The notes under the pieces: generated by a model | What the model was told of the DNA's origin: nothing | The model's database searches: none | Seen by the model: the letters and a program-made list of their open reading frames with translations, nothing else | Assembly: GCA_018716505.1 (NCBI GenBank) | Contig: DVJW01000022.1 | Coordinates: 1-32,468 of the forward strand | DNA: 32,468 bases | Direction of reading: 5' to 3' | From: Candidatus Faecaligallichristensenella faecipullorum | GTDB taxonomy: Bacteria; Bacillota; Clostridia; Christensenellales; Aristaeellaceae | Shown: positions 1,039-32,468 of the stretch, one piece after another | How positions within the stretch are numbered: the first letter of the stretch is position 1 | Layout: every line of letters begins with the position of its first letter | Program-made: the position numbers and the translations under genes

Positions 1039-1114
1039 TGGTGGAGCATAGGGGATTCGAACCCCTGACCTCAACGATGCGAACGTTGCGCGCTACCAAC
1101 TGTGCTAATGCCCC
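1039..1114 (-). tRNA. tRNA-Ala (anticodon CGC)
   Basis: A full 76-nt cloverleaf with encoded CCA. The 7-bp acceptor pairs GGGGCAU with AUGCUCC and contains the G3:U70 wobble that is the main identity element of alanine tRNA. The anticodon stem CAACG/CGUUG closes the loop UUCGCAU, giving anticodon CGC (codon GCG). The T arm is AGGGG-UUCGAAU-CCCCU. It is transcribed leftwards from the promoter at 1267-1295, behind a broken tRNA copy. Confidence 0.96.
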
Positions 1115-2463: not shown

Positions 2464-3291
2464 TTAGATAATGCCGATTCGGGTATGGGGCACGCTCCCG
2501 CCCAACAGCTCGCTGATGCGGTATTTCGCGTGACCAATGATGACCGTGGTGCCCTTGAGCGCAGCTTTAAGGGAAAACTCCAACTTGGCCTTGGCCCCGT
2601 TGGCCCCGGCCCGGCTGGCGCCCACGCAGCTCTGCTGCAGCGCGCGCACCGCCTCCATGAGCCTTTCCGCGTCCGGATAGACCACATCCCGCACCAGGCT
2701 GCCCGGGTCGGCGGGATCCCGATAAATTCCCTCGGTGGAGGTCAAAATCACCAGATAGCGCGCGTGCATCAGCTCACAAATCACCGCCGCGGTTTCGTCG
2801 TTGTCCACGCATTCCACCACATGGGCGTTGTGCCGCCGAAGGCTGCTCAATTCCATCTTGCGGTTCTCCTCGTCCGAGACCGGGTCGTTATAATTGACGA
2901 TGGGGATGGCGTTCTGCCGCTCGGCGCGCAACAGCAGCTGGCGAATATGCTCCCGCTTTTCGGCGTCGTTGAAATGCTGATGCTCCACCAGCACTTGGCG
3001 CAGCGAATATTCCGGCCGGGCAAACTGGCGGTAAGTCTCCATTAAAATGGGCTGACCCTGGGCGGAGTAGTCGGTCTTGACCTCGTTTACGTCGCCCTCC
3101 AGCTCCCGCCCATTGCGCTTTATATAGTCCAGACGGCCAATTTCGGTGGCGCCGCTGGTGACCCAAATCATGCCCGGCCTGAGCTCCGAAGCCACCCGGG
3201 ACAAAATATTGTAATCGATGTCGTTGTCCGCCTTGCGAATCATTGCCATGGAGCCGATCTTGCCCACCAGCTCGCATTCGTATTGCGCCAT
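2464..3291 (-). CDS. Amino acid kinase family protein, glutamate 5-kinase-like
   Basis: A 275-residue protein of the carbamate/amino-acid kinase fold. VGKIGS near residue 9 is the phosphate-binding lysine-glycine motif, VTSGATEIG (about 44-52) matches the VSSGA loop of glutamate 5-kinase, and IPIVNYNDPVS and ECVDNDETAAVI match the substrate loop and the DND motif of ProB. Residues LVILTSTEGIYRDP follow the family pattern. It lacks a C-terminal PUA domain. It would phosphorylate a carboxylate with ATP; glutamate is the best guess, but no proA or proC lies nearby. I chose the start at 3291 because GGAGG precedes it by 7 bases; a longer reading frame to 3501 would cross the promoter and overlap the divergent gene. 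Confidence 0.75.
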   Translation of the reverse strand: MAQYECELVGKIGSMAMIRKADNDIDYNILSRVASELRPGMIWVTSGATEIGRLDYIKRNGRELEGDVNEVKTDYSAQGQPILMETYRQFARPEYSLRQVLVEHQHFNDAEKREHIRQLLLRAERQNAIPIVNYNDPVSDEENRKMELSSLRRHNAHVVECVDNDETAAVICELMHARYLVILTSTEGIYRDPADPGSLVRDVVYPDAERLMEAVRALQQSCVGASRAGANGAKAKLEFSLKAALKGTTVIIGHAKYRISELLGGSVPHTRIGII

Positions 3292-3329
3292 GCTTCTGCC
3301 TCCATTGTGCTTGCTCAATTGTTCTAACC

Positions 3330-11074: not shown

Positions 11075-11082
11075 GCAGGTCT

Positions 11083-11331
11083 GCGTGTCAAACAAGCCAC
11101 AGGAGAGCGCGAGAGGGCCTAATCCCTTTCGCGTTTCAATCGTCCCCGACGGCGTGTACGTCGGGGACGGGGTGATTTTTGCGTCGGAAAATTTATTTTC
11201 CAGAGCAAAAATCGCTTCCTTGCAGTTTCCGCGCCCGGAAATCCGCAGGATTTTAGCGGAAACTGGAGAGGGTGGCAGTGGCGGGGGAGCTTGCTTCCCC
11301 GTCCACCAGCGTGTCGGCTTGTTCGACACGC
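11083..11331. repeat. 249-bp structured element with 16-bp terminal inverted repeats
   Basis: The ends GCGTGTCAAACAAGCC (11083-11098) and GGCTTGTTCGACACGC (11316-11331) are inverted repeats with one mismatch. Between them lie consecutive hairpins: 11108-11133 (10 bp, one wobble), 11141-11169 (10 bp perfect, CGTCCCCGAC arm), 11174-11213 (9 bp plus an inner 7 bp), 11223-11265 (10 bp perfect) and 11278-11306. The right terminal repeat itself folds into a 9-bp hairpin (11308-11332). No good coding frame or ribosome binding site is present. It resembles a MITE-like or structured-RNA element; no target-site duplication could be confirmed. Confidence 0.6.
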
Positions 11332-11334
11332 TGC

Positions 11335-11375
11335 AGCGGCCCGCGCGCTTCTTGAAAGCGCGCGGGCCGCTTTAT
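11335..11375 (+). terminator. Strong intrinsic terminator of proS
   Basis: A perfect 16-bp GC-rich stem (11335-11350 with 11356-11371), a 5-nt loop CTTGA, and a tail TTTATTCCTTTATT. It stands directly behind the inverted-repeat element. Confidence 0.85.
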
Positions 11376-16633: not shown

Positions 16634-16777
16634 TCGGGGGCCGCCGCCCCCGAATAAAAGCCGCTGGAGGACGACCTGCGCGTCCGCAAGCTGCTTCCTT
16701 ATGGGGTGCAGGATTGGCCGTGAATCTTTGATTCACAAATCCTGCACATTTCCGTCGAAAACGAAGTTTTCGGCGGA
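16634..16777. repeat. Array of hairpins in the gap between two minus-strand genes
   Basis: In the 283-bp gap 16501-16783: TCGGGGGC/GCCCCCGA (16634-16653, 8 bp); GTGCAGGATT/AATCCTGCAC (16706-16747, 10 bp) enclosing GTGAATC-TTT-GATTCAC (16720-16736); and a 12-bp stem with loop GAA (16751-16777, one wobble). No T-run follows the stems, so they are not typical terminators. No coding frame with a ribosome binding site was seen. Confidence 0.65.
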
Positions 16778-20755: not shown

Positions 20756-20762
20756 AATGCGC

Positions 20763-20884
20763 TCTTCTTCCATCCAGACTTTTCCGGAAAACCGGTTCAC
20801 TGTCGGCTTCGGAGTTACACCGAATCTGCCTTTCGGCTCGCGGGCTTTACCGCCGGTAGGGAGTTTCACCCTGCCCTGAAGATC
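20763..20884 (-). promoter_or_regulatory. FMN riboswitch (RFN element)
   Basis: The conserved RFN blocks are all present in order on the minus strand: GATCTTCAGGGCAGGGTGAA, ACCGGCGGT, AGCCCGCGAGC, GATTCGGTG, CTCCGAAGCCGACAGTG, and AGTCTGGATGGAAGAAG. The first and last blocks close helix P1 (GATCTTC with GAAGAAG). It binds FMN and normally lowers expression of riboflavin genes. It lies in front of ribU. Confidence 0.96.
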
Positions 20885-20911
20885 CCTTCGGAATGCTGTT
20901 TTTCGGCTTTA

Positions 20912-31466: not shown

Positions 31467-31495
31467 TTGACATTTCGTCTTCAGGCGGCTATTAT
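31467..31495 (+). promoter_or_regulatory. Promoter for the membrane-anchored protein gene
   Basis: A perfect TTGACA (31467-31472), 17 bp, TATTAT (31490-31495). An interrupted inverted repeat, CCTGA-ACGAA and TTCGT-CT-TCAGG (31452-31485), encloses the -35 box and may end the aldolase transcript or bind a regulator. Confidence 0.75.
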
Positions 31496-31537
31496 AATTA
31501 CGTCTGAAAACAAAACAAGCTGGACGGAGGATGCAGC

Positions 31538-32182
31538 ATGAGCGAAAAAAAACCGATTTTCCGGCGCGGAAAAGCGTTGGCCTTTGGCCGCTTTATCCGG
31601 AATCTTTTGATATTGGCCATTGTTTGCGCAGTGGGCTGGTATTTCCTGCGCTATTACAATTACGGCGGAGGCGATCCGGCGGCCCAGACGCCCACAGCCG
31701 CGCCCACCCCGGTGCCCACGTCTGCACCCACTCCGGAACCCACGCCCCGGCCCACCATGGAAATCTCCTCTGCCCCGTCCGATCTTCAAATCGCCCAGAG
31801 CGTGGAACTTTCCGCGCCGGTTCCGGCCGAAGCGGGCAAATACACCTGCGATATAACCGAGTTCAGCGCCCTGAGCGTCAACGGCCAGCCCGCCGTCATG
31901 GCGCGGGGCACGGCTTCCACCAGTGATTTGGAAGTGGGCGATGGCATTATTTATCTGGCCATAACCGGCTATTCCGGCCAGAATATCAGCGAAAAGTATT
32001 TCCCGGTTCGCTATCCGGCCGGCGACAAAAACTTTGAATGCTGTGTGGATCTCTCGGGCTTTGAGGACGGCAACTATGTGCTGAGCCTGGTGCTGGAAGC
32101 GGATTTCTCGACCCAACCGCTGCGCCTGACCCCGGCCTCGGTCCGCGGCTTTGTGCTGGAAAATGGAATACTGGTAAAATAG
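31538..32182 (+). CDS. Membrane-anchored protein with Pro-Thr linker, function unknown
   Basis: A 214-residue protein. A basic N-terminus (MSEKKPIFRRGK) is followed by one transmembrane helix (about 21-39), giving an extracellular C-terminus. Residues 48-73 are a low-complexity linker of repeated TP/AP units, a wall-spanning spacer. Residues 75-214 form a beta-rich extracellular domain with no family I recognise; it has two adjacent cysteines (ECCVDL). GGAGG lies 7 bases before the ATG. It appears monocistronic with a strong promoter. Confidence 0.75.
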   Translation: MSEKKPIFRRGKALAFGRFIRNLLILAIVCAVGWYFLRYYNYGGGDPAAQTPTAAPTPVPTSAPTPEPTPRPTMEISSAPSDLQIAQSVELSAPVPAEAGKYTCDITEFSALSVNGQPAVMARGTASTSDLEVGDGIIYLAITGYSGQNISEKYFPVRYPAGDKNFECCVDLSGFEDGNYVLSLVLEADFSTQPLRLTPASVRGFVLENGILVK

Positions 32183-32207
32183 GTCATCAACATTACGGGG
32201 ATAAGCC

Positions 32208-32468
32208 AAGCCGCCGCGGAAACAATTCCGCGGCGGCTTCTGGGTGTTGACTTTGTCAACACCCTTCGAAAAAATGAAATATTCATTTTTTCGAGTTGCA
32301 TCATTTTCCTTTGTCGCCCGTCAAAGGGCTTCGCCCTTCGCCGGGTACGCTCGGCGAATTTTCAATTCGCCGTCGCTAGTCGGGCTAACGCCCTCCCTTC
32401 CTCTGTCACCTTCGGTGACGGCCGGTCGGAGGCCGCGTTTACGCGGCTGGAGGTCCGAGGACAGCGCC
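32208..32468. repeat. Array of seven consecutive hairpins with very short loops
   Basis: After the gene stop at 32182: 14-bp stem at 32208-32239 (loop ACAA; no T-run, so at best a weak terminator); GGGTGTTGAC-TTT-GTCAACACCC at 32242-32264; a 13-bp stem at 32266-32294 (loop ATA); AAGGGC-TTC-GCCCTT at 32324-32338; CGGCGAATT-TTC-AATTCGCCG at 32352-32372; GTCACC-TTC-GGTGAC at 32405-32419; GCCGCGT-TT-ACGCGGC at 32432-32447. No supported gene was seen in this stretch, and it runs off the window. Confidence 0.7.

Follow-up and report, generated by a model that had tools for sequence, protein, structure and literature searches.

A row of hairpins at the end of a clostridial contig is probably the left end of a terminator-targeting MITE moved by IS1182-family transposases

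The end of the window, by which the whole analysed stretch of 32,468 bases is meant (the entire contig C120 of the source assembly, which comprises 236 contigs and 2.93 Mb and is 83.9% complete), raises the question of what a row of hairpins packed almost without spacer represents. A preliminary description had reported seven of them with stems of 6–14 bp, and had taken them, together with two other stretches, as a repeated design principle in noncoding DNA rather than single terminators, forming cruciforms or tight RNA hairpins. With stems of at least 6 bp and loops of 3–8, positions 32208-32468 do contain seven non-overlapping hairpins with stems of 6–14 bp, totalling 64 paired bp (Table 1). 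Dinucleotide shuffles averaged 5.6 paired bp and peaked at 30, and none of 300 equalled or exceeded the native count, which places the hairpin density far above that of shuffled sequence. RNA folding of the stretch gave z = -10.6 for the + strand and -8.8 for the - strand. It contains no ORF reaching 80 aa, only its first two bases fall within a minus-strand ORF (31481-32209), and the row runs off the contig end.

Used as a query, the 261-nt stretch returned at least 112 matches in its own genome, a lower bound with 40 of 165 candidates scored; the copy set described here consists of 39 stretches around copies and of loci from a right-end search. Complete copies measure 221–420 nt (17 of the 43 copies with a left end were scored complete), and their modules follow a fixed order of E1, E2, CATCATTTTCC, optional block I or I2, hpC, optional block II, GGAAAATGATA, H3, H4, H5 and a right end such as TTTGTCAATGGTCTG. 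In complete copies, CATCATTTTCC and GGAAAATGATA are the two strands of an enclosing stem, and the element is bounded by terminal repeats, e.g., CAGACCATTGACAAACC. H4 occurs in three versions and E1 in two; in every copy where both modules could be identified, E1a accompanies E2a and E1b accompanies E2b. Among the 17 complete copies, 13 distinct module strings occur, part of this variety reflecting motifs missed by the search patterns. Near the left end of L020, a copy carries an unfamiliar extra hairpin block inside block I. Like a MITE, the element is thus short, multi-copy and, in the part seen in the window, without an 80-aa ORF. No match to the DNA of the minimal element was found among phage and plasmid records, and a hairpin-end pattern search of the source genome returned none.

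Taken together with the flanking sequences described below, most of the row is very probably the left end of a MITE that inserts at hairpins and is moved in trans by a DDE transposase of the IS1182 family. The element would then consist of near-perfect DNA palindromes strung together between terminal repeats, its targets being mostly intrinsic terminators. The first hairpin is the terminator of the upstream gene and lies outside the element. The window copy comprises E1a, E2a, block I, hpC and the start of block II, while its right half lies beyond the contig end, where many other copies also stop. In a complete copy (L024), the sequence past this break point continues as further hairpin modules followed by a second terminator, and not as a gene further right that might encode the row. 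The window copy would accordingly be expected to close with a right end resembling TTTGTCAATGGTCTG, after which AAGCCGCCGCGGAAACAATTCCGCGGCGGCTT should appear a second time; a second copy of the terminator was not found in the incomplete source assembly with up to two mismatches allowed.

Table 1 Features of the window. Hairpins 1–7 are those of the row at 32208-32468.
Feature	Position	Strand	Stem	Remark
tRNA gene	1042-1114	-		
Second, diverged element, ends CAGCGTGTCGAACAAGCC and CTGCGTGTCAAACAAGCC	11081-11333	-		Related copies in genome
Recurring part of third hairpin-rich stretch	16653-16753			89% over 101 nt at one other place in genome
FMN riboswitch	20758-20887	-		100.4 bits
Upstream host ORF, 214 aa	31538-32182	+		Its terminator is the probable target; stop codon ends 25 nt before hairpin 1
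Host terminator (hairpin 1)	32208-32239	+	14 bp	Expected left copy of duplicated target
Left terminal repeat and hairpin E1	32240-32264	+		Counterpart of IS1182 left ends
Hairpin 2 (of E1)	32242-32264		10 bp	
Hairpin E2 (hairpin 3)	32266-32294	+	13 bp	
CATCATTTTCC	32299-32309	+		5' stem strand; partner GGAAAATGATA in complete copies
Hairpin 4	32308-32327		6 bp	Overlaps edge of block I
Optional block I (hairpins 4 and 5)	32310-32403	+		Missing from minimal copies
Hairpin 5	32352-32372		9 bp	
Hairpin hpC	32404-32419	+		
Hairpin 6	32405-32419		6 bp	
Optional block II, start (hairpin 7)	32424-32468	+		Cut by contig end
Hairpin 7	32432-32447		6 bp	

Inspecting the flanks of the copies in the source genome revealed a strong hairpin with its foot within 6 nt of the element on the left in 35 of 43 cases and on the right in 37 of 40, compared with 9/860 left and 9/800 right shuffled flanks (about 1%); the test failed at the remaining 8 left and 3 right flanks. 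These hairpins vary between sites. Open frames of 100 codons or more that read towards the element stop within 60 nt of it at 30 of 43 flanks and, on the other side, at 24 of 40, the frames being counted from stop to stop and some of them spurious. The sequence is A-rich before the hairpin in 17 of 34 left flanks and T-rich after it in 18 of 37 right flanks; as the terminator T-tracts face either way, the element is not oriented by transcription. The counts leave out L065, L066, L017 and L037, anchors without a recognised left end, as well as L022, with a right flank of 1 nt, and L034, whose right end is truncated and was scored as cut (a 12-nt repeat at the flanks of L034 is likewise uncounted).

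The two flanks of a copy often carry the same hairpin. Of 43 left flanks, 19 have 16–41 nt in common with one of the right flanks retrieved, 10 within the same copy and 9 across contigs. Both flanks could be read on one contig for 16 copies, and 12 of these display the same whole hairpin on either side when read by eye, as expected of a target-site duplication and not of a replacement of the IS1272 type, in which the stem-loop is removed without duplication. The match contains one mismatch in L029, extends over 16 nt in L043, and in L032 is interrupted by an inverted loop, so that the automatic match covers just 11 nt. The terminator loops of the L032 copy near 3076-3297 read GTGTCTTATGACAC and GTGTCATAAGACAC, as though one of the two hairpins were turned round. 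In L013, an 8-nt repeat is found instead of a whole hairpin, while the right sides of L042, L063 and L067 run into an E1-type hairpin. The hairpin duplicated around L081 (contig C163) is an H5-type module of another, related element. A further copy, L080 (contig C169), is inserted in an H5-type hairpin of a related element, with the right flank only being seen. These comparisons show that the duplicated segment is the stem-loop present at the site, its length (16–41 nt in the pairs identified) following that of the hairpin.

Candidate partners of the element were found among IS1182-family transposases, which gave matches in 72 of 150 genomes of the same bacterial family (18 above the curated cut-off), several with element-like ends. 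Partner transposases in several of these genomes score at least 400 bits against the IS1182 model NF033551, and all five proteins checked contain DUF772 and DDE_Tnp_1_6. The terminal inverted repeats are shared as well: the IS1182 copy L154 and the right end of the element have GACCATTGACAAACC in common (15-nt identity), and in genome G095 the insertion sequence L158 and the element L090 share ACCGTCGACAAAGC (14-nt identity). G095 harbours both the elements L090, L199 and L201 and IS1182 partner types. No IS1182 gene, and hence no autonomous partner, was found in the source genome at its 83.9% completeness; partner types occur in sister genera. From like ends and a like target habit, IS1182 transposases are the putative enzymes acting on the element ends. 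The sole DDE_Tnp_1 match in the source genome was rejected as a partner, being an ISAs1-family gene whose ends CACGGAAATCAATTTT, taken from the starts and ends of copies in this genome and G079, are unlike those of the element. On contig C49 (L103 and L131), CAGACTTTGTCAATGTTCT adjoins an ISAs1-family insertion sequence and resembles the terminal repeat of the element with its inner part inverted.

The target habit can be followed in the flanks of the IS1182 copies themselves. Identical hairpins stand on either side of eight copies, with duplicated lengths of 31 nt in L155, 22 in L156/L253, 20–21 in L159/L265 and 25 in both L257 and L266, while the pairs at L259, L267 and L254 were read by eye from the flanks. 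Six copies (L154, L160, L251, L252, L255 and L272) lie between two different hairpins, and L153, L256/L158 and L258 have a hairpin on one flank, the other being at or beyond a contig end. Copies away from hairpins are L165, L270/L166 and also L269, with poorly resolved ends. The remaining loci, which are partial, have other ends or were not resolved, are not part of these counts. Without a shuffle control, the score for a hairpin in the first 48 nt is 5–11 for the 17 copies at hairpins and 3, 3 and 5 for the three away from them; in L153, L154, L155, L160, L251 and L252, this left-end hairpin is the terminal repeat running into its own inverse, as in E1. Eight plasmid relatives, chosen and not drawn at random from lists of 2012 and 1921 plasmid records, were also examined. 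Six of them, from Acetoanaerobium, Lactococcus, Sutcliffiella, Peribacillus, Salinivibrio and Cytobacillus, have the same hairpin of 20–35 nt, perfect or nearly so, on both sides, and the other two (L278 and L281, from Exiguobacterium and a second Peribacillus copy) lie between two different hairpins. IS1182 copies between different hairpins, present both in MAGs and in complete plasmids, may have arisen by recombination between copies.

The element is not confined to the source genome. Among 100 genomes sampled from the same family, 30 matched the minimal element, the source genome counted, and a 33-nt core pattern was found in 27 stretches of named MAG contigs with Clostridia, Clostridiales or Christensenella in their titles. 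In other genera, a clear duplicated hairpin is present at L186, L196, L204, L206 and L094, and one with mismatches was seen by eye at L090, L093 and L096; an automatic scan of other genera left most rows without a repeat of at least 13 nt, and several of its 26 positives were spurious. In the genus to which G011 belongs, a query from L204 matched 10 of 11 genomes, G011 counted. The region 3' of the gene orthologous to the one next to L204, which we take to be aldose-epimerase-like, was inspected in seven of them (G153, G104, G055, G124, G150, G151 and G154), and none yielded an exact empty site. By eye, G104, G150, G151 and G154 carry one terminator hairpin there, and the site in G124 is cut by a contig end. 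Such single-hairpin sites can support the insertion but go no further, because the terminators have diverged. In G153 (L243), an unrelated palindromic repeat, GTCATCCTGAGCGAAG..., lies 3' of the aldose-epimerase-like gene where the relatives have their terminator.

Strong folding on both strands could also be produced by a conserved structured non-coding RNA, or by an mRNA 3' element repeated after genes. The core hairpins do covary, as both strands change in other genera with Watson-Crick pairs kept, and unpaired motifs, CTGCGGATT among them, stay constant; mobility alone does not account for an internal core conserved in this way. In a structured RNA, G·U would be expected to be favoured on whichever strand is transcribed. 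The 225 unique stems, which include some flanking terminators, hold 1931 Watson-Crick, 11 G·T, 23 A·C and 16 other pairs, and H3 and H4 across genera (a few sequences being mis-picked) hold 254 Watson-Crick, 2 G·T, 8 A·C and 12 other pairs. G·T is thus rare and not favoured, and the slight surplus of A·C would, if anything, speak for the - strand. At gathering score, an Rfam scan of the row found nothing, and on an element the only match, below threshold, was BTnc005 with an E value of 0.19. As there is moreover no orientation bias and both ends and duplications are transposon-like, a structured RNA is an improbable account. We take the stem pattern to reflect DNA palindromes on which selection or templated repair acts, and these fit better than RNA because G·T does not exceed A·C and the T-tracts face both ways. 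Of the two forms first proposed for the hairpins, the DNA one thus holds up better than tight RNA hairpins, and the covariation looked for was found, yet without the G·U excess that a conventional RNA would lead one to expect.

Group IIC introns insert next to terminators, and a retroelement or an element resembling them would account for the terminator preference and for duplications of variable length. Such an origin is very unlikely given the terminal inverted repeats common to IS1182 and the lack of orientation bias; group II intron domains gave no Rfam match in the window at gathering score, nor in five loci up to an E value of 1. Equally doubtful is a multiplication of the hairpins by replication slippage or of REP/BIME palindromes by a Y1 (RAYT) transposase. 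The many palindromic, modular intergenic copies do resemble REP/BIME, which are abundant mosaic palindromes between genes, but a different enzyme and no target duplication are expected of those, and terminal repeats combined with whole-hairpin duplications, seen here at many sites, are expected neither from REP/BIME nor from slippage. An assembly artefact, suggested by the many copies that stop at contig ends, is already refuted by the complete copies, with 16 two-flank copies inside contigs and like duplications in complete plasmids.

The two other hairpin-rich stretches grouped with the row recur as well, at least in part. Positions 11083-11345 hold 42 and positions 16634-16777 hold 26 paired bp, and in neither case did any of 300 shuffles reach the count. 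The diverged element at the first has clear terminal repeats but only one flank with a terminator hairpin (11335-11371); at the opposite flank, the hairpin was lost or never present. The second place of the recurring part of the other stretch is L017 2852-2951, where L017 and L056 overlap on one contig. The proposal of a repeated design thus stands, with at least 112 matches to the row, relatives of the 11083 site and one recurrence of part of the 16634 stretch; it had missed the mobile element as the repeated unit and the first hairpin as an ordinary host terminator.

ISfinder lists variable direct repeats for the IS1182 family, and its entries may already include members that duplicate hairpins. 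Stem-loop targeting by the family is in any case known: according to reviews cited in PMC5678879 and PMC4923244, some IS1182 members target palindromes, and the staphylococcal IS1272/TnSha1, IS1182-family by name, resembles the present element in its stem-loop targets without sequence specificity. Furi et al. 2016 (PMC4923244) report IS1272/TnSha1 at hairpins that are partly deleted and that include several confirmed terminators. According to Wan et al. 2017 (PMC5678879), IS1272 removes or replaces the stem-loop without duplication, unlike the present element, which duplicates it whole. The duplication had nonetheless been drawn before as a hypothetical pathway in the discussion and the Fig. 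13 legend of the same article, where joining at the 5' foot of the stem-loop may duplicate it entirely. The pneumococcal BOX, RUP and SPRITE repeats are similar as small intergenic repeats, partly modular or terminator-like and with nested insertions, but the sections of PMC10969869 on them mention neither whole-terminator duplication nor IS1182. In titles and abstracts of the open-licence literature, no description of terminator-duplicating IS1182 elements or MITEs was found.

The sites have the anatomy of the duplicating pathway argued by Wan et al. 2017, with cleavage positions and the cruciform being inferred from sequence. In this pathway, the target terminator would be recognised in the form of a single-stranded hairpin or an extruded cruciform, the element's two 3' ends would be joined at the 5' feet of the stem-loop, and gap filling would copy the stem-loop to either side. 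Insertion would then be nearly harmless, since the genes on either side keep a terminator. It is also possible, though we would stop short of calling it probable, that target shape sets the duplication length, with the DDE enzyme cutting at both 5' feet of the extruded hairpin and any palindrome being copied whole, and that the MITE, a chain of palindromes kept perfect as DNA by selection or templated repair, can target itself. With the H5-type hairpin duplicated at L081 and three copies meeting an E1-type hairpin, arrays could grow by such self-insertion.

For these Clostridia, the element would account for hairpin arrays and assembly breaks, and it can use terminators as safe landing sites with no gene losing its terminator. 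For the IS1182 family, it would provide many natural examples of stem-loop-duplicating transposition, present in the portions of literature covered here as a model drawing only, and structure-guided target choice by a DDE enzyme would become testable using designed hairpins and predicted duplication lengths.
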